Shown here one piece after another: positions 1,324 through 15,448 of a stretch of DNA of 64,000 nt. A program made the position numbers and the translations under genes. Location: positions 3,457,001 through 3,521,000 of the forward strand of contig NZ_CP088251.1 of NCBI RefSeq assembly GCF_021117405.1. Reading direction: 5' to 3'. The notes beneath the pieces were generated by a model. The model was not told where the DNA came from, ran no database searches, and worked only from the letters and a program-made list of their open reading frames with translations. Within the stretch, counting starts at the first letter, position 1, and every line of letters begins with the position of its first letter. Origin of the DNA: Frateuria edaphi. Its GTDB lineage: Bacteria > Pseudomonadota > Gammaproteobacteria > Xanthomonadales > Rhodanobacteraceae.

Positions 1324-1444
1324 ACGCCCTCCACCGAGATGGCTGAATATCCTGCTCTGCCGGGAAGCCAACAGGGGGGGGGCTCGTCGCGAATCTTAGC
1401 CGTCAGTCAAAGCACGGTTGAACTCTCTGCATGAGGGTTCAACC

Positions 1445-2059
1445 ATGAAGACCATCCAACGCAAGGCACCTTGGAACAAGGGCAAGCTCATCGGGCAGAA
1501 AGCACCCCTCAGGCTCCGTGAGCTCTGGGCCATTCGGGTAAGGCTCCAATTATCCGGCACGGCCCGCAACTTGGCGCTGTTCAACCTCGCAATCGATTCG
1601 AAGCTTCGCGGCTGCGACCTTGTCAGCTTGCGTGTTCGAGATGTCTCGCAAGGAACCGTGGTGTCGAGTCGCGCGATCGTCCTTCAGCGGAAGACCAATC
1701 GCCCGGTGCAGTTTGAAATCACAGAACAGACCAGGGCTTGTCTTTTGGCCTGGATCCACACAGCCCGCCTCAGTCTGGCCGACTACCTATTCCCTGGCGG
1801 CCATAGTCAGGACGCCCACCTCTCAACCAGACAGTACGCACGTATCGTCCACGCATGGGTACGGTCTATCGGTTTGGACCCGTGCAGCTACGGCACCCAC
1901 AGCATGCGCCGCACCAAGGTGGCGCTCATCTACCGGCACACGAAGAACCTGCGCGCGGTACAGCTGCTGCTCGGGCACACGAAGCTTGAAAGCACGGTCC
2001 GCTACTTGGGTGTCGAGGTCGATGATGCGCTTGAGCTAGCCGAGCAGACGGAAGCATGA
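1445..2059 (+). CDS. Minimal tyrosine recombinase / integrase
   Basis: This 204-residue protein is essentially a catalytic domain only. Visible active-site elements are an Arg in the segment SKLRGCDLVSLRV, a Lys in a QRKTNRPV beta-hairpin, the HSMRRT box (H-x-x-R), LLGH, and a C-terminal TVRYLG tyrosine. There is no arm-binding N-terminal domain and barely any core-binding domain, so it is much shorter than phage integrases. I chose the ATG at 1445 because GAGGG lies just upstream and the protein then begins MKTIQRKAPW; an in-frame start at 1418 has no such site. The sequence shows neither its target site nor what it mobilises. It lies next to, but is unrelated to, the island integrase at 2356-3603. 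Confidence 0.85.
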   Translation: MKTIQRKAPWNKGKLIGQKAPLRLRELWAIRVRLQLSGTARNLALFNLAIDSKLRGCDLVSLRVRDVSQGTVVSSRAIVLQRKTNRPVQFEITEQTRACLLAWIHTARLSLADYLFPGGHSQDAHLSTRQYARIVHAWVRSIGLDPCSYGTHSMRRTKVALIYRHTKNLRAVQLLLGHTKLESTVRYLGVEVDDALELAEQTEA

Positions 2060-2355: not shown

Positions 2356-3603
2356 TCATTGGGTCACCTCCTTATGGCCGTGGCTGCTTACGCCACCATG
2401 GATGGCGCCGGCGATCAGCCGATCGAACGCGGTGCCGTCGCGGCGCACCAGGTTAGGCACATAGCGCGAATAGGTTCGGAACAGCATCTCGGTTGTCGTG
2501 TGGCCGAGCTGGCGCGCGATCCATTCCGGAGCCTCGCCGGCCGCGAGCCACAACGTGGCGCACGTATGGCGCATTTCGTACGGTCGCCGGTAGGGGATCT
2601 CCAGCCGTTCCAGCAAGGGCTTCCACACGCGGTAGACGAAATTGGTGGTGTCCACCGGCCGGCCTGACCGCGTGGGAAACACGTAGGCCTCCGCGTAGGC
2701 AGCAGGATCGCCGTCGTAACCTTCCGGCCGCATGGCTTTAAGTGCCTCGATCACAGGAGCGCTGACCTGCAGGTCCCGTTGCGAGCCGTCCGTCTTGGTG
2801 TACTCGGTGCGGCCATCCTGATAGGTCTCGCGGATCAGGACTTGGCCACGGGCGAAGTCCACGTACTTCCACTTCAGGCCGTTGGCCTCGGCCGACCGCA
2901 CGCCGGTGAAGAAGCGGAACATCAGGTAGGGCTTGTAGTCCGGGCGCACCGCGGCAAGCATTCGGTTAATGTCCTCCAGCGAAAAGGGCTGGATATCCGT
3001 GCGCTTGAGCTTGAGCCGACGGATCTCCGCGCACGGGTTGTCGAGTCCGAAGCGTAGACCCGCCTCGGTCATCACCATGCGCAGCATGCCCACGATGCGA
3101 TTAATGGTGGCCGGGGCGAGCACGCCACGGCGCCGCCCGTGCTTCTGCTCCGGATCGGCCAGCTTGCGACGGAAGTCCATGACCTTTGCACGATCGATCT
3201 GATCCAGGTGGAGCTCACCAAAGGCCGGCATCAGGTGCGTCTTGAAGATGGATTCGACCGCCAGCTTGTGGGTGTGGCGCCACTCCAGGCTGTGCTCAGC
3301 GAACCACTGTTCGGAGAACTCCCTGAACTTCGGGAGATGGCCGATTTGCCGCCGCGGGACCGCGTGCTTAGCCGAGGGCGCAGCGTCGGCGAATTCCTGC
3401 GCCTTCTTGCTGCCGGGAAAGGTTCGGGCGTAATCGAACGTGCCCGAGCTGATCTCCGCTTCAATCCGGGCGAGGACCTTCTCCATCTGCCGCCGGTTCG
3501 AGGGCGTATCGGGGAGCGCCGCGTACTCGCGGCAGCGGACACCGCGGTAAAGGAAATCGAAGTAGAGGCGCTTGGTATCGGGGCGAAACCGCACACTACC
3601 CAT
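2356..3603 (-). CDS. Island integrase (tyrosine recombinase with N-terminal arm-binding domain)
   Basis: This is a 415-residue site-specific recombinase. Residues about 1-70 (MGSVRFRPDTKRLYFDF onward) resemble the short arm-type DNA-binding domain of DUF3596 phage integrases. A SAM-like core-binding domain follows (about 100-210), then the catalytic domain. Catalytic elements visible are the Arg in FFTGVRSAEANGL, the Arg in YEMRHT (Tyr replaces the usual first His of that box, as in some integrases), QLGH, and the nucleophilic Tyr in TYSRY. The start ATG overlaps the stop of the upstream excisionase-like gene by 8 bases, which implies translational coupling. It is the most likely enzyme for moving the defence island to its right. 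Confidence 0.9.
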   Translation of the reverse strand: MGSVRFRPDTKRLYFDFLYRGVRCREYAALPDTPSNRRQMEKVLARIEAEISSGTFDYARTFPGSKKAQEFADAAPSAKHAVPRRQIGHLPKFREFSEQWFAEHSLEWRHTHKLAVESIFKTHLMPAFGELHLDQIDRAKVMDFRRKLADPEQKHGRRRGVLAPATINRIVGMLRMVMTEAGLRFGLDNPCAEIRRLKLKRTDIQPFSLEDINRMLAAVRPDYKPYLMFRFFTGVRSAEANGLKWKYVDFARGQVLIRETYQDGRTEYTKTDGSQRDLQVSAPVIEALKAMRPEGYDGDPAAYAEAYVFPTRSGRPVDTTNFVYRVWKPLLERLEIPYRRPYEMRHTCATLWLAAGEAPEWIARQLGHTTTEMLFRTYSRYVPNLVRRDGTAFDRLIAGAIHGGVSSHGHKEVTQ

Positions 3604-3829
3604 GGCAGAGGGCGCCCGAAGCCATCGGGATGGAGATGTCGCGCTCTTCGGCGCGACGGAGCATGTCCCGCTCAATGTGCTCCCAGATGTAGAGGATCTT
3701 CCTTCCGCCAAAGGGTCGGAAGTAGTGCACGCCCTCCAGGAGCACGGTGTCCTTGAGGCGGTTACGTATGGTTCGCGGGTCGTACTGGATCCGAGTAGCC
3801 AGCTGCTCGGTGGTCAGGTAAGTTTGCAC
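3596..3829 (-). CDS. Excisionase-like / AlpA-like DNA-binding protein
   Basis: This is a 77-residue protein directly upstream of the integrase and overlapping its start. Its N-terminal part (LTTEQLATRIQYDPRTIRNRL) has the shape of a MerR/AlpA-type winged helix-turn-helix, followed by a basic HYFRPFGGRKILYIWEHI segment. Small proteins of this kind usually direct excision or activate int. Gene order, length and overlap all support a recombination-directionality role, but that is inference from context. A promoter lies upstream at 3889-3916. Confidence 0.7.
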   Translation of the reverse strand: MQTYLTTEQLATRIQYDPRTIRNRLKDTVLLEGVHYFRPFGGRKILYIWEHIERDMLRRAEERDISIPMASGALCHG

Positions 3830-3863
3830 GTTGGTTCTCCCGTTGACTGTGGTCGACAGGCGT

Positions 3864-3878
3864 CGTCGTTAAGCGACG
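3864..3878. promoter_or_regulatory. Putative operator O1 (CGTCG-N5-CGACG)
   Basis: This is a perfect dyad, CGTCG TTAAG CGACG. It lies just downstream of the leftward promoter at 3889-3916, where a bound repressor would block transcription of the xis-int pair. A related dyad sits at 3925-3940. Binding by the HTH protein encoded at 3959 is inferred. Confidence 0.5.
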
Positions 3879-3888
3879 CTTGTTGCCG

Positions 3889-3916
3889 ATAATAGTCGAC
3901 GGGTGCTGCTTGTAAA
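3889..3916 (-). promoter_or_regulatory. Promoter for the excisionase-integrase pair
   Basis: On the minus strand, TTTACA (3916-3911) and TATTAT (3894-3889) are separated by 16 bases. Each differs from the sigma-70 consensus at one position. It faces the genes at 3829-2356 and lies between the two dyads O1 and O2. Confidence 0.6.
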
Positions 3917-3924
3917 CACCGTTT

Positions 3925-3940
3925 GTCGCTTTTAGGCGAC
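3925..3940. promoter_or_regulatory. Putative operator O2 (GTCGC-N6-GCGAC)
   Basis: The dyad GTCGC TTTTAG GCGAC lies 19 bases before the start of the HTH regulator gene. It shares its half-site sequence with O1. The position suits autorepression of the rightward defence operon; this is inferred from symmetry and position only. Confidence 0.5.
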
Positions 3941-3958: not shown

Positions 3959-4222
3959 ATGATCCGGTTTCGGCTAGCTGAGCTCATCGCGGACAAGGCG
4001 TTCAAAGAACGCCGCGTGGTATCGCTCACCGAGGTCGCGGAAGCCACGGGCGTCCACCGAGCCACGTTGTCCAAGATGGCCAACCAGCCAGGGGCCAACA
4101 TCGGCACGGAGGTCATCGACAAGCTATGTCGATACTTCGACTGTCAGCCAGGTGATTTGCTGACCTACGTTCCACCTGAGCCCTCAGTAGCCTCGAGTAG
4201 GACGGAGAGCAGTCCTCCGTGA
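3959..4222 (+). CDS. HTH (XRE/HTH_26-type) transcriptional regulator
   Basis: This is an 87-residue Cro/C1-type repressor. The HTH is visible around residues 23-45 (SLTEVAEATGVHRATLSKMA), followed by helices ending in YFDCQPGDLL, the usual end of this small domain. The ATG at 3959 has GGAT upstream and starts the protein at the predicted first helix. Its stop overlaps the GTG start of the next gene by 4 bases (GTGA). It is the first gene of a rightward operon containing hsdRMS and mcrBC. It faces the leftward xis-int pair across a 129-base region holding two related dyads, so it probably controls both. Confidence 0.85.
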   Translation: MIRFRLAELIADKAFKERRVVSLTEVAEATGVHRATLSKMANQPGANIGTEVIDKLCRYFDCQPGDLLTYVPPEPSVASSRTESSPP

Positions 4223-4884
4223 CCATAGGGCAGCTGTCCTTCCCGCTACTCCGCCTTACGCAGCCTCTGGCGCTCCCAGATCTTTTTGACATCCCTCTCG
4301 ATGACACCACCTGGGAGCCAGGCCGCTACCAAGGGAACCAACCAGAGCGCCGACCATCATCTTTTGGGTCGGTAGGCCGAGCGTTAGTGCCAAAGGAGCG
4401 TTGGCATAGCCTCGAGGCGGGTGAGCGTGGGATTTACATCCTTGGATTCAGTGTTCCCGAACCCGCCGTTTACGTTGGTCTGGCGGTGGGTGAAACGTTT
4501 CTTTCGAGGCTGCGCAAACACCGGGCGAAGGTGACCGCCTCCAACGTTGGCGCTGGCGTGTCCCACACAGGGGGATGGAAACCCTTTGCCACCTCCCGGT
4601 ACCACTACCACACCCGACATGGCCTCCAGGACACACTGGCCGATGCCGTGGTCATGCTTGGCCGCTGCGAAGTTGCCTCCGGCACATCGCTGAGAGAGTC
4701 ATGCAAGTGGTATGAGTCGCGCCTCATTCGGGATGGGGAGCCACGACATACGTTGATATCTCTGCTATTGGGCTCAACAAATGCTCAAAGACTCAATGCA
4801 AACGGCGGGAGCAAAGCCGTCGCTTCGATCGGGGGCGGTCATATATCTCTAGGTCGAGGCGTATCGATTTCCGTCAGCGCTTGA
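4219..4884 (+). CDS. GIY-YIG-like domain protein of unknown role
   Basis: This 221-residue protein starts at a GTG overlapping the stop of the regulator gene. The central part matches the GIY-YIG nuclease plan: GIYILGF at about 71-77, YVG at 85-87, a downstream RLRKH (about 97-101), and a glutamate in KWYESRLI (about 166), where the family has its metal-binding Glu. The first 60 residues are proline-rich and unassigned, and the tail is glycine/serine-rich. It might nick or cut DNA as part of the defence operon. The motif match is by eye and the catalytic assignment is uncertain. Confidence 0.6.
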   Translation: MTIGQLSFPLLRLTQPLALPDLFDIPLDDTTWEPGRYQGNQPERRPSSFGSVGRALVPKERWHSLEAGERGIYILGFSVPEPAVYVGLAVGETFLSRLRKHRAKVTASNVGAGVSHTGGWKPFATSRYHYHTRHGLQDTLADAVVMLGRCEVASGTSLRESCKWYESRLIRDGEPRHTLISLLLGSTNAQRLNANGGSKAVASIGGGHISLGRGVSISVSA

Positions 4885-4972
4885 AACCCAGCTGTCCCGG
4901 TATGGCGCAGGCCCTTTGCTAAGCTTAGAGGCGATCTGCCTCCACTTGGGGCGATCAGACAGGGGGCCATCT

Positions 4973-7444
4973 GTGGTTACAGGGACGAAGCTCAGCGAGC
5001 GCGACGTTTGTACCAAGCTCATTACCCCGGCGCTGGTCAGTGCCGGGTGGGACGTGCAGACGCAGATCCGCGAAGAAGTCAGCTTCACCAAGGGCCGCAT
5101 CATCGTACGGGGCCGGCTGGTTACCCGCGGCAAGGCCAAGCGGGCCGATTACGTCCTCTATTACAAGCACCTGCCATTGGCGCTTATTGAGGCCAAGGAT
5201 CACGTTCACGCCGTCGGTGACGGCATGCAGCAGGCCTTGGGCTACGCCGAAACGCTGGACATTCCCTATGTGTTCTCGTCGAACGGCAAGGGGTTCGTGT
5301 TTCACGATCGCAGTGGCGCATCGGCACAGCCCGAAAGGTCGTTGGCGCTAGGCGACTTTCCGAGCCCCACCGAACTGTGGAATCGTTACTGCGCCTGGAA
5401 AGGACTCGCCCCGGACGAGGAGAGCACCGTCCTGCAGGCGTATTACGAAGACGGCAGCGGCAAGGAGCCGCGCTACTACCAGCGCAATGCCATCAACGCG
5501 GCCGTCGAAGCCATCGCCAAGGGGCAGAGACGAATCCTGCTGGTCATGGCAACCGGAACCGGCAAGACCTATACCGCCTTCCAAATCATCTGGCGGCTGT
5601 GGAAAGCCGGGCAGAAGAAACGCATCCTGTTCCTGGCCGACCGCAACGTGCTGATCGATCAGACCATGGTCAACGACTTCCGCCCGTTCGGGCCGGCGAT
5701 GGCCAAGCTGAGCACCGCCAGCAAGACCATTGAGCGCGCGGACGGCAGTGAGGTCGAGCTCACCCTGGCGCTGGACAAGAAGCGCCGCATCGATCCCGCC
5801 TACGAAATCTATTTGGGCTTGTACCAAGCCATCACCGGACCGGAAGAACAGCAAAAGCTGTTCCGCGAGTTCTCCTCGGACTTCTTCGACCTGATCGTCA
5901 TCGACGAGTGCCACCGCGGCAGCGCCGCCGAGGATTCCGCCTGGCGCGAGATTCTGGAGTACTTCGGCAACGCCACTCAGATCGGCCTGACCGCCACACC
6001 GAAGGAAACCGAGTACGTCTCCAACATCCACTACTTCGGCGAGCCGGTTTACACCTACTCGCTCAAGCAAGGCATCAGCGACGGCTTCCTGGCGCCGTAC
6101 AAGGTCATCAAGGTGCACCTGAATGTCGACGTGCAGGGCTACCGGCCCAAATCGGGCGAGACCGACAAGCACGGTTATCTCATTGACGACCGGCTCTACA
6201 ACGAGAAGGACTTCGACCGCACGCTGGTGATCGACGAGCGCACCCAGCGCGTGGCAAAGTGGATCTCCGACTACCTCAAGCAGAGCGGCGACCGCTTCCA
6301 GAAAACCATCGTGTTCTGCGTCGACACCGAGCACGCCGCGCGCATGCGCCAGGCGCTGATCAACGAGAACGCCGATCTGGTGCAGCAGAACGCCCGCTAT
6401 GTCATGCGCATCACCGGGGACGACAGCGAAGGCACCGCCCAGCTCGGCAACTTCATCGACCCGGAGTCCATCTACCCGGTCATCGTCACCACCTCGCGCC
6501 TGCTCTCCACCGGCGTGGATGCGCAGACCTGCCGCCTGATCGTTCTGGACCGCGAGGTCGGCTCCATGACGGAGTTCAAGCAGATCGTCGGGCGCGGCAC
6601 CCGCGTGCACGAGGACACCCACAAGTACTACTTCACCCTGGTGGACTTCCGAAAGGCCACCAACCACTTCGCCGATCCCGACTTCGATGGCGAGCCGGTG
6701 CAGATCTACCAGCCCGCCGAATACGATCCGCCGGTGCCGCCGGACGACATTCCGCACGATGACGACGGCACGCCCTTGCCACCCGAGCCCACCGACGAGG
6801 AAACCATCGTCGACCGCCCGCCACCGGCAATCCCGCCACCCGGCGTGGATGACGGCCAGCCGCGCAAGTACTACGTCAAGCAGCGCCCGGTCACCGTGGT
6901 GCTGGAGCGCGTCGAATACCTCGACGAATCCGGCAAGCTGGTCACCGAGTCGTTGCGCGATTACAGCCGCAATGCCATCCGTCGGCACTTCACCAGCCTC
7001 GACGCCTTCCTGCGCCGCTGGCGCCAAGCCGAGCGCAAGGAGTCGGTGATTGCCGAGCTGGCCGAGGAGGGTCTGCTGCTGGAGCCGCTGCAGGAAGAAG
7101 TCGGCAAGGATCTGGATCCGTTCGATCTGATCTGCCACATCGCTTTCGACCAGCCGCCGCTCAGCCGCCGCGAGCGCGCCGACAACGTGACCAAGCGCGA
7201 CGTGTTCACCAAGTACGGCCCGCAGGCGCGCGCCGTGCTGGAAGCGCTGCTCGCCAAGTATCGCGATGAGGGCGTGGTCACCGATCTAGACAATGTGCGG
7301 GTGCTGGAGATCCCGCCCTTCAACGCAATGGGCACGCCCATCCAGCTGATCAAACCCTTCGGCAGCAAGGCCGGCTTCGAACGCGCCGTGCACGAGCTGC
7401 AGAACGCCCTCTACGCCAGCGAAACCCAGCAGGAATCCGCTTAA
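4973..7444 (+). CDS. hsdR: Type I restriction enzyme, R subunit (HsdR)
   Basis: This 823-residue motor-nuclease subunit cuts unmodified DNA after ATP-driven translocation in complex with HsdM and HsdS. The N-terminal PD-(D/E)xK nuclease shows Asp59 and a LIEAK motif (Glu73, Lys75). The superfamily-2 helicase follows with TGTGKT (194-199), DECH (311-314), GLTATP, and QIVGRGTR as motif VI. A proline-rich linker leads into an EcoEI-type C-terminal domain. I chose the GTG at 4973 because AGGGGG lies 6 bases upstream; an upstream TTG at 4916 lacks a ribosome binding site. The gene lies 88 bases after the GIY-YIG-like gene and 3 bases before hsdM. All key motifs are intact. Confidence 0.93.
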   Translation: MVTGTKLSERDVCTKLITPALVSAGWDVQTQIREEVSFTKGRIIVRGRLVTRGKAKRADYVLYYKHLPLALIEAKDHVHAVGDGMQQALGYAETLDIPYVFSSNGKGFVFHDRSGASAQPERSLALGDFPSPTELWNRYCAWKGLAPDEESTVLQAYYEDGSGKEPRYYQRNAINAAVEAIAKGQRRILLVMATGTGKTYTAFQIIWRLWKAGQKKRILFLADRNVLIDQTMVNDFRPFGPAMAKLSTASKTIERADGSEVELTLALDKKRRIDPAYEIYLGLYQAITGPEEQQKLFREFSSDFFDLIVIDECHRGSAAEDSAWREILEYFGNATQIGLTATPKETEYVSNIHYFGEPVYTYSLKQGISDGFLAPYKVIKVHLNVDVQGYRPKSGETDKHGYLIDDRLYNEKDFDRTLVIDERTQRVAKWISDYLKQSGDRFQKTIVFCVDTEHAARMRQALINENADLVQQNARYVMRITGDDSEGTAQLGNFIDPESIYPVIVTTSRLLSTGVDAQTCRLIVLDREVGSMTEFKQIVGRGTRVHEDTHKYYFTLVDFRKATNHFADPDFDGEPVQIYQPAEYDPPVPPDDIPHDDDGTPLPPEPTDEETIVDRPPPAIPPPGVDDGQPRKYYVKQRPVTVVLERVEYLDESGKLVTESLRDYSRNAIRRHFTSLDAFLRRWRQAERKESVIAELAEEGLLLEPLQEEVGKDLDPFDLICHIAFDQPPLSRRERADNVTKRDVFTKYGPQARAVLEALLAKYRDEGVVTDLDNVRVLEIPPFNAMGTPIQLIKPFGSKAGFERAVHELQNALYASETQQESA

Positions 7445-7447
7445 CCC

Positions 7448-8905
7448 ATGTCAGCCCGCACCACCGTCAAATCCATCCAGGACCTCATGCGCCAGGATGT
7501 CGGCGTCGATGGCGACGCCCAGCGCCTCTCCCAACTTTGCTGGATGTTTTTCCTCAAGATCATCGACGACCAGGATCAGCAGCTAGAGCTGATGCAGGAC
7601 GGCTTCACCTCACCCATTCCGCCGCGCCTGCAATGGCGCAGCTGGGCCGCCGATCCCGAGGGCGACACCGGCGACACGCTGATGGCCTTCGTCAACGACG
7701 ACCTGTTTCCCGCGCTCAAGGAGCTGCCCGCGCTGGGCAAGCAGGCCAACCGCGCCCGCGTCATCCGCAGCCTATTCGAGGACGCCTACAATTACATGAA
7801 GTCCGGCCACCTGATGCGTCAGGTGATCAACAAGATCAACACCGTAGACTTCAACGATCTGGCCGAGCGCAAGCACTTCGGCGAGGTCTACGAGCAGCTG
7901 CTCAACGATCTGCAGAACGCGGGCAACGCCGGCGAGTACTACACGCCGCGCGCGGTCACTGCCTTCATGGTCGACCGCATCGACCCGCATCCCGGCGAAA
8001 AGCTGTTTGATCCCGCCTGCGGCACGGGCGGCTTTCTCACCTGCGCCATTCGCCACATGCGCGACCGCTACGTGAAATCCGTGGCTGACGAAAAGGCCCT
8101 GCAAGCGGGCCTGCGCGCGGTGGAAAAAAAGCCGCTGCCGCACATGCTGTGCGTCACCAACATGCTGCTGCACGGCATCGAAGACCCCAGCTTTGTGCAG
8201 CACGACAACACCCTGGCCCGGCCCTACATCAGCTGGGAGCAGAAAGAGCGCGTCGACATCATCCTCGCCAACCCGCCGTTCGGCGGCAAGGAAGAGGACG
8301 GCATCGAATCCAATTTCCCCGCGCACTTCCGCACCAAGGAAACCGCCGACCTGTTCCTGGCGCTGTTCATCCGCCTGCTCAAGCCCGGCGGCCGCGCCGC
8401 CATCGTGCTGCCGGACGGCTCGCTGTTCGGCGAGGGCGTGAAAACGCGGCTCAAGGAACATCTGCTGGAAGAGTGCAACCTGCATACGATCGTGCGGCTA
8501 CCCAACAGCGTGTTCAAACCCTACGCCAGCATTGGCACCAACCTGCTGTTCTTCGAAAAGGGCAGCCCCACGCAGGACATCTGGTACTACGAGCACCGCG
8601 TGCCCGAAGGCCAGAAGGCCTACTCCATGACTCGGCCGATCAGGGTCGAGCACCTGCAGGATTGCGTCGACTGGTGGGGCGGAGCGAGTCACGAAGGCCG
8701 CGTGGAAACACCCCAGGCATGGAAGGTCACAGCGGACGAGGTGAAGGCTCGCGGCTACAACCTCGATATCAAGAATCCGCACACCGAGGCCGAAGATCAC
8801 GGCAACCCGAAAGCCCTGCTGGCCGAACTGGATGCGGCGGAAGCCGAGGCGGCGCGGTTGCGCGAGCAGCTGAAGGTGATCCTGGCCGAGGCGCTGGCGC
8901 GATGA
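7448..8905 (+). CDS. hsdM: Type I restriction-modification, DNA N6-adenine methyltransferase (HsdM)
   Basis: This 485-residue protein methylates adenine at the site chosen by HsdS. It has the N-terminal helical HsdM domain (about 1-150), then the SAM-binding motif DPACGTGGF (about 188-196) and the catalytic NPPFGG (about 274-279). The C-terminal helical region ends in a coiled-coil-like segment rich in Ala/Glu/Arg. The length is normal for the family. The start lies 3 bases after hsdR and the stop overlaps the hsdS start by 4 bases (ATGA), so all three subunits are co-translated. Confidence 0.95.
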   Translation: MSARTTVKSIQDLMRQDVGVDGDAQRLSQLCWMFFLKIIDDQDQQLELMQDGFTSPIPPRLQWRSWAADPEGDTGDTLMAFVNDDLFPALKELPALGKQANRARVIRSLFEDAYNYMKSGHLMRQVINKINTVDFNDLAERKHFGEVYEQLLNDLQNAGNAGEYYTPRAVTAFMVDRIDPHPGEKLFDPACGTGGFLTCAIRHMRDRYVKSVADEKALQAGLRAVEKKPLPHMLCVTNMLLHGIEDPSFVQHDNTLARPYISWEQKERVDIILANPPFGGKEEDGIESNFPAHFRTKETADLFLALFIRLLKPGGRAAIVLPDGSLFGEGVKTRLKEHLLEECNLHTIVRLPNSVFKPYASIGTNLLFFEKGSPTQDIWYYEHRVPEGQKAYSMTRPIRVEHLQDCVDWWGGASHEGRVETPQAWKVTADEVKARGYNLDIKNPHTEAEDHGNPKALLAELDAAEAEAARLREQLKVILAEALAR

Positions 8906-11184
8906 ATAGCGAAGGCTTTCTTGCTGCTCTAGCTCATGCCGGCGATGGACCTGCGCAGATTCAGCAGGTGCGCAAGGTCATCATCGCACTCGCGATCTCG
9001 GGAAAGCTGACGAACTTCGATCGCGCGATCGGTTCCGCACAAGTAGTAGATGTAGATCGGTCAGGCGCTTTCGTCCTGGCGGCGGGAGGATCACCACGCC
9101 GAAAGAAATCGGTCGTCACGATCAATCAAGACGATCTCCCAGAGGGCTTTGACGAACCCAGTCGCTTCATTCGTCTGGGCTCAGTGGCAACGATTGAAAA
9201 GGGGCGCACCGGCATCAGAGGAGCGCCACCCGGACCGTACCCGATGGTCGTCACCGCTGCCGAACGGATGACGAGCGATCACTATGACTTCGACGGTGCC
9301 GCTGCAATCGTGCCGCTGGTGTCTTCCACAGGACATGGCAGGGCAAGCTTGCACCGCCTTCACTATCAAGAGGGGCGGTTCGCGTTAGGCACCATTCTTG
9401 CGGCGATCTTCCCTCACGATCCGCAAAAGCTATCGGCTCGCTTTCTCTACGAATATCTGACGACTTTCAAGGATGAACTACTCGTCTCGCGCATGATCGG
9501 TACAGCAAATGTCTCGCTAAGCATCGGGAAAATAGCTGAAGTCCCTGTGCCACTTGTCGACCGCTCGACCCAGAAGCAGGTCGACGAGCTGATGGCGCTG
9601 TGCGACCAGCTGGAAGCGGCGCGGGCGCAGCGCGAGGCCACGCGCGACCGGCTGGCCGCGGCAAGCCTGGCCCGCCTGAACGCGCCCGATCCGGACACCT
9701 TCCCCACCGACGCCCGCTTCGCCCTCGACGCCCTCCCGGCCCTCACCGCCCGCCCTGACCAGATCAAGCAACTTCGCCAAACCATCCTCAACCTCGCCGT
9801 CCGCGGCAAGCTCGTACCGCAAGACCCTTCGAACGAGCCGGCAACATCCTTGCTGAAAAAAATTGCCTCACTTCGATCCAAGAAGCTTGAAGGGGGCTAT
9901 CCGAATGAAGTTGAAGCTCGTGCCCAACTTAAAAAGTCGCAAACGCAACGTGTGCCGGATCAGCTAGCTCCGCCTCCCGCTGGTTGGACATGGGCGACAT
10001 TGATGCAGTGCTCGATCCTTGTCGTTGACTGCAAGAACAAGACTGCGCCTTACGCGAAATCCGGCATTCGCTTGATCCGAACAACGAACGTGCGCGATGG
10101 CCAGATGAACAACATCGACCAGAGGTATGTTGACCAGCGTACATACGAGGAGTGGAGCGCCAGGTGCACACCCGAACCAGGCGACGTGTTGATAACCCGG
10201 GAGGCCCCCATGGGCGAGGTCTGCCTGATTCCTCCGGGCGAAAGAATATGTCTCGGCCAGCGAATGATGCTTGCTCGCTTGCCAGACGACTTGATGGATC
10301 CGCGCTTCATTCTCTATTCACTCCAAGACCAGCGACTGATGGATCGGGTTCAAGACAAGCCTATCGGAGCAACGGTTCAGCATCTCCGCGTGGGTGGCGT
10401 TGAAACACTGCTTATGCCAGTCCCTCCTCTAGAGGAGCAACGCCGTATCGTCGCCAAGCTCGACGAGCTGATGGCGCTGTGCGACCAACTGGAAGCCAGC
10501 CTCACCACCGGCGAAGCCGCCCGCAGCCAGTTGCTCGAAGCGTTGCTGCATGAGGCGCTTGCTCCCGCTCCCACAGCAAGTAGCGAACATCCACGCGCCG
10601 CCGTGAGTGGCTACGTGGTCTCGCGTCTCGCCCACAGGCGGAACTTCGGCCGTACGGCGCACATGAAGCACCTCTATCTGGCCGAGTCGCGCCTCGGCCT
10701 GAAGCTGGGAGGCCGCTACATGCGCGAAGCAGCCGGCCCACTGGATACCGGCATCTACGAGTTGGAGAAGCAGGCGGAGGCCGCTGGCTGGTACACCCAC
10801 AACGTCGAAAAGCTTCCCTCCGGCAAGGAGAAGGTGAGCTACGTGCCCGGCAAGGCTCTCGAGGCTTTGGTCGAAGAAGGCGCCGCCGTGCTTGGACCTT
10901 CGCGCGAGGAGATGGATCGGCTGATCGATCTCATGGGCGGTTTGACGACCGAGCAGGTCGAGATCATCGCCACGCTTTTTGCCGCCTGGAACGACGTCCT
11001 AATCGATGGCCACACCCCGGATGACGACTGGATCGTCAAAGAGGTACGCGAGCACTGGCACGCCAGCAAGCGGCGCTTCGCGCCAGCCGAGCTGCACAAA
11101 TGGCTGGGGTGGATGCGTCAGAACGACGTGATCCCGCTCGGCCACCCGCCTCGCACGATGCAACAAACCACGATGGAGCTTTGA
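8902..11184 (+). CDS. hsdS: Type I restriction-modification specificity subunit (HsdS) with a long C-terminal extension
   Basis: This is a 760-residue protein, whereas typical HsdS proteins have about 400-600. It has two target-recognition regions (about 85-215 and 345-510). Each is followed by a conserved helical repeat, visible as DELMALCDQLEA near 225 and again near 515. The paired IQQVRKVIIALA / IKQLRQTILNLA segments mark the two half-subunits. From about 565 to 760 there is an additional domain (LYLAESRLGL onward, with TTEQVEIIATLFAAWND) that is not part of the classic fold. It looks like a helical or winged-helix module. The recognition regions are AT-richer than the conserved parts, as expected for exchangeable domains. 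Confidence 0.9.
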   Translation: MNSEGFLAALAHAGDGPAQIQQVRKVIIALAISGKLTNFDRAIGSAQVVDVDRSGAFVLAAGGSPRRKKSVVTINQDDLPEGFDEPSRFIRLGSVATIEKGRTGIRGAPPGPYPMVVTAAERMTSDHYDFDGAAAIVPLVSSTGHGRASLHRLHYQEGRFALGTILAAIFPHDPQKLSARFLYEYLTTFKDELLVSRMIGTANVSLSIGKIAEVPVPLVDRSTQKQVDELMALCDQLEAARAQREATRDRLAAASLARLNAPDPDTFPTDARFALDALPALTARPDQIKQLRQTILNLAVRGKLVPQDPSNEPATSLLKKIASLRSKKLEGGYPNEVEARAQLKKSQTQRVPDQLAPPPAGWTWATLMQCSILVVDCKNKTAPYAKSGIRLIRTTNVRDGQMNNIDQRYVDQRTYEEWSARCTPEPGDVLITREAPMGEVCLIPPGERICLGQRMMLARLPDDLMDPRFILYSLQDQRLMDRVQDKPIGATVQHLRVGGVETLLMPVPPLEEQRRIVAKLDELMALCDQLEASLTTGEAARSQLLEALLHEALAPAPTASSEHPRAAVSGYVVSRLAHRRNFGRTAHMKHLYLAESRLGLKLGGRYMREAAGPLDTGIYELEKQAEAAGWYTHNVEKLPSGKEKVSYVPGKALEALVEEGAAVLGPSREEMDRLIDLMGGLTTEQVEIIATLFAAWNDVLIDGHTPDDDWIVKEVREHWHASKRRFAPAELHKWLGWMRQNDVIPLGHPPRTMQQTTMEL

Positions 11185-11187
11185 CCC

Positions 11188-13716
11188 ATGGCCTTCAGCA
11201 CGGACGACACGTTGTGGCGCGAATTTCTCCAGGTTTGGCCGCTCGAACGGCTCCGCACCATGACTCTGGCCGAGTACACCACGGCGGGTGACAAGGACTG
11301 CTTCGTCTATTGGCTGGAGTTCCGGTTGATCGATTACGGCAGCATCGCCGGGGGCTCCGCGTTCAAGTTCGGGATCTTCTCCCGCAAGGACACCGTGGCG
11401 CGCGAGGGTGACACCTCGCTGGCTTACGACGAGCACTACGGCTGGTACCGCCGATTCGGCAAGTCGCCCGAAGAGGCATTTCAGGCGATCCGTGGCCACG
11501 TGGTCGCCGTGGCCGAGGCTGCTCGTGATGGCCGCCTCGACGAGATCGACAGCAGCCCGCTCGGCGCGGCCTATCGCTGGAAAGTTGCCTTTCACTATCA
11601 GCCGCTGCAGAACCCGAGCATTCCCTGCGTATACGTACGCAAGCCTCTTCTGCACTTTCTCGGCCTACCCGCGTCGGATAGCACGACCGCTCAAAGTGAC
11701 CTCTACCGATCGCTAGCGAAGTTGCGCCAGGCGGACGAGAGCATCTTCGCGTTCAGCGAACGGCTCTGGAAAGACTGGGTGGCCAACACACCGTTTGTCG
11801 TGAGGCTGAGCGAGGGGGCCATCAAGAACGGCTACCTCGCTGTCAATCTCATATCCGCTCCCTTCCCCGAGACCATGTACGGCGGCAAGACGCCAGCGGA
11901 CGCCGCCGACACGGCACATTTCCGCACTGACTCCGGGCTTGAGTTCGACACCGACATACGCGTTGTAGGGCCCGGCAGTGGTCGACTGCGCCATCGATTA
12001 GGCAGCTACTTCAAGGACATTGGTGCAGCCGCAGGTGACGTCATCACCATTATTCAGGACGGCGATGGGACGTACCAGTTGTTTTCAAAGGTGGCGAACC
12101 ATACAGCCGGGCCGGTGGTACCGGTCGCAGCAACCTCCACCCCTACCTCGGCGAAAGAGACCACGACCGAGCGGCCTCCTTTGAACCAGATCCTTTTTGG
12201 ACCGCCGGGAACGGGAAAGACCTACCAGGCCATCGAGAAGGCCCTGGAAATCCTCGACCCTTCATTCCTATTGCGGTTGGGCTACGACGAAAGCGACGAG
12301 CGCCGCAAGGAACTCAAGCAGCGCTACGACGAACTGGCAAACGAGGGGCTTGTGCAGTTCGTGACGTTCCACCAGAGCTTCAGCTACGAGAACTTCGTCG
12401 AGGGCCTGAGCGCCAGCTCTGATCCGGATACCAGGCAGATTCGCTATGACGTGGAAGACGGCGTCTTCAAAGAGCTTTGTGCGTCCGCCCGTACGCGGCT
12501 GGTACGCAAGAGCGAGGACGCCCCACTGGAACTTTCGGAACGGCGCATCTGGAAGTTGTCGTTGGGCGACGCCAACACCGAGGGACACATCTACGAAGAG
12601 TGCATGGAGAAAGGCCTTGCCCTGATGGGCTTTGGCAACAATGCAGACTTCTCTAAGTGCCAATCCCGCGAAGATATCCAGAGGGTGTTTGCCGCCTCCG
12701 GTGAACCGCTTTCGCTTGGCGATTACCCAATCACGGCCATCAACACGTTTGTCCGCCAGATGAAGAAGGGCGACCTCGTTGTCGTGAGCGAAGGCAACTT
12801 GAAGCTCCGCGCCATAGGCGAAATTACCGGCGACTATCAGGTGGTCGCTCGTGAAGATGACAACTACTCTCAGGCGCGGACCGTACGCTGGCTTCGCGCC
12901 TATAAGCCCGGCCTACCCTACGGCGCGTTGATGGAGAAACGCTTCCAACAAAAGACGACCTATGAACTGCACCGGGGCTCCATCAACCACGACAAGCTGC
13001 GGGCACTGCTGAAGGCGGAGGACAGCGCGGCGTTTGCCGATCATCCACGTGTATTGATCATCGACGAGATCAACCGAGGCAATGTCTCGCGAATCTTCGG
13101 CGAGCTGATTACGCTGATCGAACCCTCCAAGCGCGCAGGTGCTGCCGAGGCGCTGGAGGTCTTGCTGCCCTATTCGAAAGATCCATTCAGCGTGCCGGAT
13201 AACGTGTACCTGATCGGCACCATGAATACGGCAGACCGTTCGCTGGCGGGCCTCGACATAGCGCTTCGTCGACGCTTCGTCTTCGTGGAAATGCCGCCCA
13301 GGCCGGACAAGCTGACCGGCATCAAGGTGGCCGGGATCGACGTGTCGGCTGTCCTCGAGACGATGAACCGCCGCATCGAGATCCTGCTCGATCGCGATCA
13401 CCAGCTCGGGCATGCCTATTTCATGTCGCTCGAGAACAGCAACGACTTGTCGAGGCTGTCGAGCATCTTCCGACAACAGGTCATCCCGCTGCTTCAGGAG
13501 TACTTCTTCGAGGACTGGCAGCGCATCGCGTGGGTACTGAACGACCATCGCAAGGAGAAGGGATTCCGTTTCGTCGTGCCCGCCGGGTATCCCATGGACT
13601 CGTTGTTTGGCGACACCGGGGAGTTGGTACCGGACGCCAAAGCGTGGCGATTGGACGAAGAAGCCTTCGACAAGCCGCAGAGCTATCTGGGCATTCTCGG
13701 TGGCGTCAAGGGCTGA
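11188..13716 (+). CDS. mcrB: McrB-like AAA+ GTPase with an EVE-like domain inserted in the motor domain
   Basis: This 842-residue protein is the motor of a modification-dependent restriction system. The first ~330 residues are an N-terminal domain I cannot assign, possibly the DNA reader. The motor shows GPPGTGKT (about 337), the McrB-typical FVTFHQSFSYENFVEGL, Walker B with the McrB signature IIDEINRGN (about 622), and GTMNTADRS. Walker A and Walker B are about 285 residues apart, far more than in E. coli McrB. The extra part (about 450-570, RIWKLSLG ... FVRQMKKGDLVVV) resembles an EVE/PUA-like modified-base pocket. It starts 3 bases after hsdS and ends 4 bases before mcrC. Confidence 0.85.
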   Translation: MAFSTDDTLWREFLQVWPLERLRTMTLAEYTTAGDKDCFVYWLEFRLIDYGSIAGGSAFKFGIFSRKDTVAREGDTSLAYDEHYGWYRRFGKSPEEAFQAIRGHVVAVAEAARDGRLDEIDSSPLGAAYRWKVAFHYQPLQNPSIPCVYVRKPLLHFLGLPASDSTTAQSDLYRSLAKLRQADESIFAFSERLWKDWVANTPFVVRLSEGAIKNGYLAVNLISAPFPETMYGGKTPADAADTAHFRTDSGLEFDTDIRVVGPGSGRLRHRLGSYFKDIGAAAGDVITIIQDGDGTYQLFSKVANHTAGPVVPVAATSTPTSAKETTTERPPLNQILFGPPGTGKTYQAIEKALEILDPSFLLRLGYDESDERRKELKQRYDELANEGLVQFVTFHQSFSYENFVEGLSASSDPDTRQIRYDVEDGVFKELCASARTRLVRKSEDAPLELSERRIWKLSLGDANTEGHIYEECMEKGLALMGFGNNADFSKCQSREDIQRVFAASGEPLSLGDYPITAINTFVRQMKKGDLVVVSEGNLKLRAIGEITGDYQVVAREDDNYSQARTVRWLRAYKPGLPYGALMEKRFQQKTTYELHRGSINHDKLRALLKAEDSAAFADHPRVLIIDEINRGNVSRIFGELITLIEPSKRAGAAEALEVLLPYSKDPFSVPDNVYLIGTMNTADRSLAGLDIALRRRFVFVEMPPRPDKLTGIKVAGIDVSAVLETMNRRIEILLDRDHQLGHAYFMSLENSNDLSRLSSIFRQQVIPLLQEYFFEDWQRIAWVLNDHRKEKGFRFVVPAGYPMDSLFGDTGELVPDAKAWRLDEEAFDKPQSYLGILGGVKG

Positions 13717-13720
13717 GCAG

Positions 13721-15016
13721 GTGCGAGAGCACGTCGTCGTCAGGGAATACGCTCGGCTAACCACGTCCGCCGTTACCGATGCGTCGCTCGACGTGGCCCG
13801 CGTACCGGAATCGGCCTTCGACTGGCTGTGCAGGGAAAGCGCTCGACTGCAGAGGTCGGGCGCTGCGCTGGTACAGGTGGACGATCGCCGCTGGTTGCGG
13901 CTGGACAGCTACGTTGGCGTGATTGAGACCCCTTGCGGCACGCGCATCGAAATCCTCCCGAAGACAGCGGAACACGGGGACAACCGCGAGGCGGCCCGCA
14001 GGTTGCTGCGCAAGATGCTGGCTCGTTGCCTCGATGTACCTACCCGTGAGACGTCGCCGACCGACATCCAGACCTTCGACGCGCCACTCACCGAATGGGT
14101 AATGGGCCAGTTCCTGCATTCGCTGGACCGGCTGGTCAAGCGCGGCCTGCGCTTCGACTACCACCGCGTGCAGGAGGAGCAGCGCTTTCTGCGCGGGCGG
14201 CTGGACCTACCACGCCAACTCCGCCAGCCGCCGGGACGTGACCACCTGTTTCAGATCGAGCACGACGTATTCGACGCCGACCGCCCCGAGAACCGGTTGC
14301 TGTGCTCGGCGCTGGATCGCGTCTGCCGGCTTACCCGCGACGCCGGCAATTGGCGCCTGGCGCACGAGCTGGCGACTTTCCTCGCACCGGTACCCCGCAG
14401 CCGAAACGTCAACGACGACTTCCGTCGTTGGCGCACTGATCGGTTGCTGGCGCACTACCAGCCAGCACGCCCATGGTGCGCGCTGATTCTTGGCGAGCAC
14501 ACCCCGTTATCGGTATTGGGCGGGTGGCATGGCACCAGCTTGCTTTTCCCGATGGAAAAGATTTTTGAACGCTACGTGGAAGCCTGCCTGCGCAAGACCC
14601 TGCCGCCGGACGCGACGCTCAAGACGCAGGCATCCAGTGGGTATCTGTGCCGGCACAACAGTCAGAACTGGTTCCAGCTCAAACCCGACTTCCTCATCAA
14701 ACAGGGCGAGCAAACCTGGGTTCTGGACACGAAATGGAAGCTGCTCGATCAGTCTTTGGGCAACACCAAGGAGAAGTACAGACTCAGTCAGTCCGACTTT
14801 TACCAGCTGTTTGCGTATGGCCACCGTTACCTGCCTGCCGCAGGACAGATGCTGCTGATCTATCCCATGACGACCCGCTTCGACCTTCCCTTGCCGATCT
14901 TCACTTACTCCCAAGAGCTGCATCTGAGGGTAGTGCCGTTTGATCTTGAGAAAGGACGCATCGCAGTAGGGCCGGGAGAGGCTTGGCGTCTACCTTGGGT
15001 TCGCGAGTTCGCGTGA
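13721..15016 (+). CDS. mcrC: McrC-like nuclease subunit
   Basis: This protein of about 431 residues partners with the upstream McrB-like motor. The N-terminal half matches McrC (VGVIETPCGTRIEILPK, followed by an FLRGRLD segment). The C-terminal half holds the PD-(D/E)xK nuclease, visible as LKPDFLI followed by WVLDTKWK, and a YQLFAYG helix. I chose the GTG at 13721, four bases after the mcrB stop; a GTG at 13700 inside mcrB is an alternative without a clear ribosome binding site. It is the last gene of the defence operon, and no terminator is evident directly after it. Confidence 0.88.
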   Translation: MREHVVVREYARLTTSAVTDASLDVARVPESAFDWLCRESARLQRSGAALVQVDDRRWLRLDSYVGVIETPCGTRIEILPKTAEHGDNREAARRLLRKMLARCLDVPTRETSPTDIQTFDAPLTEWVMGQFLHSLDRLVKRGLRFDYHRVQEEQRFLRGRLDLPRQLRQPPGRDHLFQIEHDVFDADRPENRLLCSALDRVCRLTRDAGNWRLAHELATFLAPVPRSRNVNDDFRRWRTDRLLAHYQPARPWCALILGEHTPLSVLGGWHGTSLLFPMEKIFERYVEACLRKTLPPDATLKTQASSGYLCRHNSQNWFQLKPDFLIKQGEQTWVLDTKWKLLDQSLGNTKEKYRLSQSDFYQLFAYGHRYLPAAGQMLLIYPMTTRFDLPLPIFTYSQELHLRVVPFDLEKGRIAVGPGEAWRLPWVREFA

Positions 15017-15289: not shown

Positions 15290-15371
15290 GAGGCTTGCTG
15301 GGAAACGGCTTGCGCCGCTTGCGAGCCACCGCGCTACATCCGGAACGGATGAGGCGATGACCTATGGCAGA

Positions 15372-15448
15372 TGGCGCGCCTGGAGGGATTCGAACCCCCG
15401 ACCAATGGCTTCGGAAGCCACTACTCTATCCGGCTGAGCTACAGGCGC
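15372..15448 (-). tRNA. tRNA-Arg, anticodon CCG
   Basis: Seventy-seven bases including the encoded CCA. The acceptor stem GCGCCTG/CAGGCGC pairs over 7 bases with discriminator G. The D arm AGCTCAG is present, the T arm contains GGTTCGAATCC, and the anticodon loop TTCCGAA gives CCG, which reads CGG. The 3' end faces the island, the usual arrangement for integration into a tRNA gene. Confidence 0.95.

Follow-up and report, generated by a model that had tools for sequence, protein, structure and literature searches.

Where a complete type I restriction-modification (R-M) system runs directly into an McrBC pair, as it does in Frateuria edaphi, the question arises of whether the two have been joined into one defence unit and, if so, how far that unit extends. 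An original prediction, made from the letters of the window (the whole stretch of 64,000 nucleotides analysed here), had proposed a single seven-gene operon led by a repressor gene and restricting unmodified and modified DNA together. We consider it probable (roughly 0.77) that the locus is a five-gene cassette on a 67.7-kb tRNA-Arg island, whose genes would be co-expressed to give two complementary layers of restriction, and its best reading is as a modular dual-restriction operon.

Table 1. Features of the locus, in window coordinates (C1, contig of the same genome).
Feature	Position	Strand	Remarks
Short Xer-like tyrosine recombinase	1418-2059		
Tyrosine integrase (IntP)	2356-3711	-	profile match, Arm-DNA-bind_2
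xis-like small protein	3596-3829	-	overlaps integrase frame
Two inverted repeats	3860-3940	.	shared GTCGC/GCGAC; between xis and HTH
HTH regulator	3959-4222	+	HTH_26 match
GIY-YIG-like protein gene	4219-4884	+	motif residues, without family match
hsdR	4973-7444	+	GTG start at 4973; EcoAI-family type I restriction subunit (translocase and nuclease)
hsdM	7448-8905	+	N6-adenine methyltransferase; N6_Mtase match; ANPPFGG motif by eye
hsdS	8902-11184	+	specificity subunit; Methylase_S match; internal repeats and C-terminal extension
HsdS internal repeats	9578-9617 and 10457-10496		two of 40 nt, 95% alike
HsdS C-terminal extension	10567-11181		about 205 aa
mcrB-like AAA+ gene	11188-13716	+	AAA_5 match; Walker A GPPGTGKT, insert, Walker B LIIDEINR, NTAD (NxxD)
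Insert in McrB AAA+ domain	12493-13008	+	between motif FHQSFSYE and Walker B
mcrC	13721-15016	+	nuclease partner; GTG start at 13721; PF10117, 5e-114
32-bp repeat in tRNA-Arg 3' end	15369-15400	.	identical copy at C1:3404674-3404705
tRNA-Arg (ccg)	15372-15448	-	attachment site

The seven co-directional genes were recovered with the coordinates and spacing first proposed, the gaps being, in order, -4, 88, 3, -4, 3 and 4 bases; the 88-base gap before hsdR falls to 31 if an upstream TTG at 4916 is used as its start. HsdR passed the EcoAI-family model NF046051 with 1155.7 bits (cut-off 550) and carries, by eye, MATGTGKT and IEAKD, and HsdR, HsdM and HsdS together make up a type I R-M system of the EcoAI family in one locus. 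McrC shows by eye the residues PDFLI...DTK, and as a PF10117 protein with PD-(D/E)xK residues adjoining an McrB AAA+ GTPase it completes a type IV McrBC pair; the NCBIfam McrB and McrC equivalogs were also matched, with scores below cut-off. Profile matches bear out the identities first given to the HTH protein, the complete type I system and McrBC, whereas the label "GIY-YIG-like" comes down to motif residues and "EVE-type" to weak matches in relatives of McrB. The unit has 58-64% G+C in 1-kb bins, against 64-75% beyond 16 kb. At the hsdS-mcrB junction no plus-strand promoter-like or terminator-like site was found in a scan that is itself uninformative, since it returned fewer sites in all than shuffled sequence: a sole promoter-like site, pointing toward xis-int, versus 2.6, and 6 terminator-like sites versus 11.5.

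The limits of the unit can be read from its relatives. A single DNA match of 9,975 nt at 90% identity links window positions 4980-14952 to Rhodanobacter lindaniclasticus (L049), running from the eighth base of hsdR (counted from the GTG at 4973) to inside mcrC and leaving the HTH and GIY-like genes outside. Rhodanobacter sp. FW104-R8 (L048) has the same outer match limits, with 86-94% DNA identity in the longer matching pieces, different HsdS recognition regions, and an FRG-domain gene between hsdR and hsdM; a copy of that gene, 66% identical, occupies the same place in genome G267 (L164), where DNA homology of the unit also starts at hsdR. Both Rhodanobacter loci keep the order hsdR-hsdM-hsdS-mcrB-mcrC, and no HTH or GIY-like relative was found in either. 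These match limits identify, on sequence grounds, these five genes as the conserved unit: the packed, co-directional joining of a complete type I system with McrBC stands as first proposed, while a seven-gene extent is not supported. The five genes and their order are common to the three loci; both Rhodanobacter units start about 240-285 bases past a tRNA-Met, whereas the unit in the window ends 355 bases from tRNA-Arg.

That all seven genes form one regulated system, the HTH protein repressing the operon and a GIY-like nuclease serving as a working subunit, is a reading we consider unlikely. It would fit the 4-base overlap of the HTH and GIY-like genes, their co-directional reading into hsdR, and a weak HTH relative (28%, 5e-6) directly upstream of a same-strand hsdR in L126; against it stand the start of DNA homology at hsdR in L048, L049 and L164 and the relatives of both genes. 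Among the collected loci, HTH relatives at E 1e-3 were confined to the locus itself, L074 and L126, and a further one (L189) came from a plasmid search. In L189 (HTH 49%, xis 60% and IntP 44% identical) and L074 (36%, 67% and 46%), as in the window, the HTH gene is divergent from the integrase with the xis-like gene between, in the same place beside the integrase. The claim that a repressor leads the operon is unsupported, because these best-matched HTH relatives are divergent from a xis-int pair; the gene is missing from L048, L049 and L164, and L126 is a weak counter-example to a regulator that is not conserved at the head of the unit. The HTH regulator thus probably belongs to the integrase module rather than to the conserved unit, and the inverted repeats between xis and HTH are possible candidate operators. 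HTH relatives also occur on two Halomonas plasmids, where according to the listed annotation R-M genes are not directly beside them; on one, a DNA methyltransferase lies 2.8 kb away. As for the GIY-like protein, GIY/GVY, YVG, R, H, E and N are retained in one 34% identical relative; it has no Pfam match, PF01541 (GIY-YIG nuclease) included, and solved structures gave chance-level matches only. In the order sample, 397 genomes besides our own yielded one relative (L190, 40%, in a stretch holding no relative of other window proteins); the class sample (359 genomes besides our own) yielded none, nor did plasmids and phages at 1e-5 or viral contigs in a scan sensitive to close relatives only, so that the gene appears nearly unique in the genomes searched.

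The recombinase pair and tRNA first noted beside the operon are present (Table 1), and the island to which they belong is real: the two copies of the 32-bp repeat, 67.7 kb apart, are its ends. The congener G184, with its outer flank 200 bases from the tRNA, presents a near-empty site, and in G344, G022 and G399 about 3.8, 9.2 and 2 kb separate the two. The short Xer-like recombinase occurs twice on the island, in the window and at L183:1124-1729 (84% protein and 77% DNA identity). A complete Wadjet JetABCD lies at the island's far end (C1:3405123-3411771; L182:1124-7772), and L182:14118-19720, also on the island, holds two long adjoining co-directional open reading frames of 877 and 991 aa, with no PADLOC match at 1e-5.

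Such a setting invites another account, in which two independent defence systems are neighbours because islands collect defence genes, their co-expression having no function; we rate this as possible, at somewhat below an even chance. The Wadjet at the island's opposite end is in its favour, as is other cargo in such operons: L048 and L164 have the FRG gene between R and M, and L180 has a Fic gene. So is the finding that the type I and McrBC halves also occur apart. In an order sample of 398 genomes (McrB relatives at E 1e-30, near HsdM relatives at E 1e-100), 22 genomes, our own included, carry an McrB relative and 14 a near HsdM relative. Only one of the 13 others with a near HsdM (G105) has a full adjacent McrBC. 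In G267 (L164) the order R-FRG-M-S ends in an mcrB stub of 52 residues, 64% identical (L164:11699-11857), with no McrC match in the locus, a partial loss. The remaining 11 have no McrB match at 1e-4 in the stretch examined; in two of them (L167, L171) the sequence ends too soon after hsdM for a decision, and one (G253) carries an McrB relative on another contig. Conversely, among 20 of the 21 other McrB genomes (all but G124; several contigs are short), 4 (L028, L030, L039, L042) have a co-directional HsdM upstream within about 3 kb.

Counts taken around McrB argue against mere co-housing. The best 80 of 217 McrB relatives gave 76 loci after removal of L101, L118, L124 and L125, in which no McrB open reading frame was called; upstream sequence reaches 3.5 kb or more in 66 of the 76 and falls short of that in 10. 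An hsdM lies co-directional within 3.5 kb upstream in 18 of these 76, where 2.85 would be expected from uniform placement of the 28 hsdM matches, kinship ignored; that is, 18 of the 28 hsdM matches in these loci are directly upstream and co-directional. The remaining 58 have no hsdM directly upstream, within the upstream lengths just given. The commonest neighbour-gene clusters are hsdS (21 loci), a 1036-aa cluster (21 loci; HsdR domains in both members scanned) and hsdM (18), the next reaching 7. The hsdS-to-mcrB spacing (listed gap less 3 for the stop codon, with longest-ORF starts) is -4 in six loci (L061-L063, L065, L075, L081), 3 in L048 and L049 and -1 in L056, and these six overlaps, like the same five-gene block beside different tRNAs, speak against independent systems. 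Read by hand, the order R-M-S-B-C is found in L048, L049, L056 and L121 (L052 being cut by the contig end), and M-S-B-C-R in 14 loci, several with genes between C and R; of these, L062 reaches its contig end ahead of R, and in L054 mcrB is preceded by a 2.7-kb gap. In L063 mcrC is followed by a 1032-aa gene that encodes HsdR. L058 has B-C-M-S-R, and further arrangements exist.

On a quick McrB tree (77 rows), adjacency of hsdM and mcrB changes at least 13 times; M-S-B-C-R requires 9 changes, of which starred branches force 5, against a mean of 13.1 for shuffled labels, and R-M-S-B-C requires 4, of which 3 are forced (shuffled mean 5.9), these counts not separating gain from loss. Three Halopseudomonas-type McrB loci are near copies, and both arrangements cluster on the tree, needing fewer changes than they do when labels are shuffled, which argues that part of the association is inherited; the pairing has in part been passed down and in part been re-made or lost. 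The case first set against a single unit, that of independent halves adjacent only by chance, thus holds in that both occur apart and fails in that the two are adjacent far more often than uniform placement would give, and are so on separate branches of the tree. One further pairing stands at the same tRNA-Arg: in congener G398 (L180:3665-15889) the genes directly after it encode HsdR (1169 aa), Fic, HsdM (identified by tblastn only), HsdS, McrB, McrC and an ASCH protein. Identity to the window proteins is 29% for HsdR and 34% for HsdM, which argues that this R-Fic-M-S-B-C locus is a distant, separately assembled composite, not a copy.

The five-gene cassette is not without precedent. The immigration control region of E. 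coli K-12 (EcoKI hsdRMS, symE, mcrBC) has the same co-directional R-M-S-B-C order on one strand, and what Bell et al. 2024 (PMC11090510) write of the K-12 McrBC branch describes it as often associated with type I R-M, usually with all genes in one direction and potentially as one operon, so the contrast with E. coli drawn in the original prediction was overstated. Going by that description, the window shares with the branch the frequent, one-directional link, the GTPase-domain insert and NxxD. K-12 differs in detail: symE stands in a 730-base interval from hsdS to mcrB, and hsdR and hsdM are 200 bases apart, whereas both gaps in the window are 3; the window HsdR is of the EcoAI family, and its McrB has an N-terminus without a Pfam match and an insert in the AAA+ domain. 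In the RptR-RMS-DarTG-M48 island of EPEC, as the RptR paper (PMC12255303) presents it, a small regulator likewise precedes a type I operon that carries defence cargo; there the cargo, DarTG2, is between S and R, and RptR has no close structural relative according to its authors, while the regulator in the window is not shared by relatives of the unit. Because the pairing is known from E. coli and is in print as common, the locus is a good new example of a composite, not a new kind. It contributes a block with sharply defined borders, an intermediate stage of loss, and another, distantly related composite at the same tRNA. It also offers a naturally portable, compact cassette in which restriction of unmodified DNA is paired with that of modified DNA. 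With the block at another tRNA, the mcrB stub and the distant R-Fic-M-S-B-C locus, whether the halves are selected as a pair or co-housed becomes testable in a simple cloned cassette.

In the dual-restriction operon that we favour, the five genes would be read as a single transcript, and their co-expression may benefit the host as follows. HsdM2S would mark host DNA with m6A at sites set by HsdS, and unmarked incoming DNA would be cut by HsdR; McrB would read a modified base through its N-terminal domain, its AAA+ insert or both, and would recruit McrC to cut hypermodified or foreign-methylated DNA that escapes the type I enzyme. McrBC would be a modular cargo, gained and lost just 3' of hsdS. 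The N-terminal domain of McrB is PD-T4-1-like by PADLOC and has no Pfam match. The solved McrB proteins nearest by sequence are 6ut3 (the Thermococcus McrB) and 6hz4. PADLOC PDC-S02 matches all 41 aligned McrB inserts and Pfam EVE 6 of the 41 (best 0.0089), the window's not among the six; hhalign of the insert profile against 23 EVE proteins aligned a short GD...GEITGD stretch at 5.9% probability, and a PDB profile search for an EVE nature gave implausible weak matches only. The insert is probably an EVE-like modified-base reader, this being a weak assignment. Among EVE architectures in defence, EVE-McrB is given as the commonest in Bell et al. 2020 (PMC7641849), and the account of McrB GTPase domains in Bell et al. 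2024 (PMC11090510) has them often carrying inserts, likely specificity domains. Membership of the CoCoNuT systems was rejected: as defined in that account, NxD replaces NxxD in their McrB, whereas the window McrB and three relatives have NTAD (NxxD).

McrBC might instead guard the type I system, acting when that system is blocked or when cell DNA gains a foreign modification, by analogy with guard modules between hsdS and hsdR; this we think improbable. In L067 an AAA_13 protein, of a family that includes the guard PrrC, lies just before B-C-R. Position also agrees, McrBC lying in the M-S-B-C-R loci where DarTG2 does in the EPEC island. The RptR paper (PMC12255303) suggests that the interval between hsdS and hsdR may be a hotspot of defence cargo. 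We see no sensor that would link McrBC to HsdM or HsdR, however, and most McrB relatives of the sample (58 of 76) do not have an hsdM directly upstream.

Most speculative, and very unlikely in our estimate, is that effectors of a second line (McrBC here, DarTG2 and others elsewhere) dock at a conserved slot just 3' of hsdS, with McrBC coupled functionally or physically to HsdM2S and the type I specificity subunit, with its C-terminal extension, helping to direct or license a modification-dependent nuclease. An McrBC-specific docking role for the extension was rejected: it is not specific to McrBC, because L165 carries it (48%) with no McrBC match beside it. The extension matched no Pfam family and is modelled in PADLOC as PDLC03196; the PADLOC type I methyltransferase model PDLC03039 also matches it, near its C-terminus.
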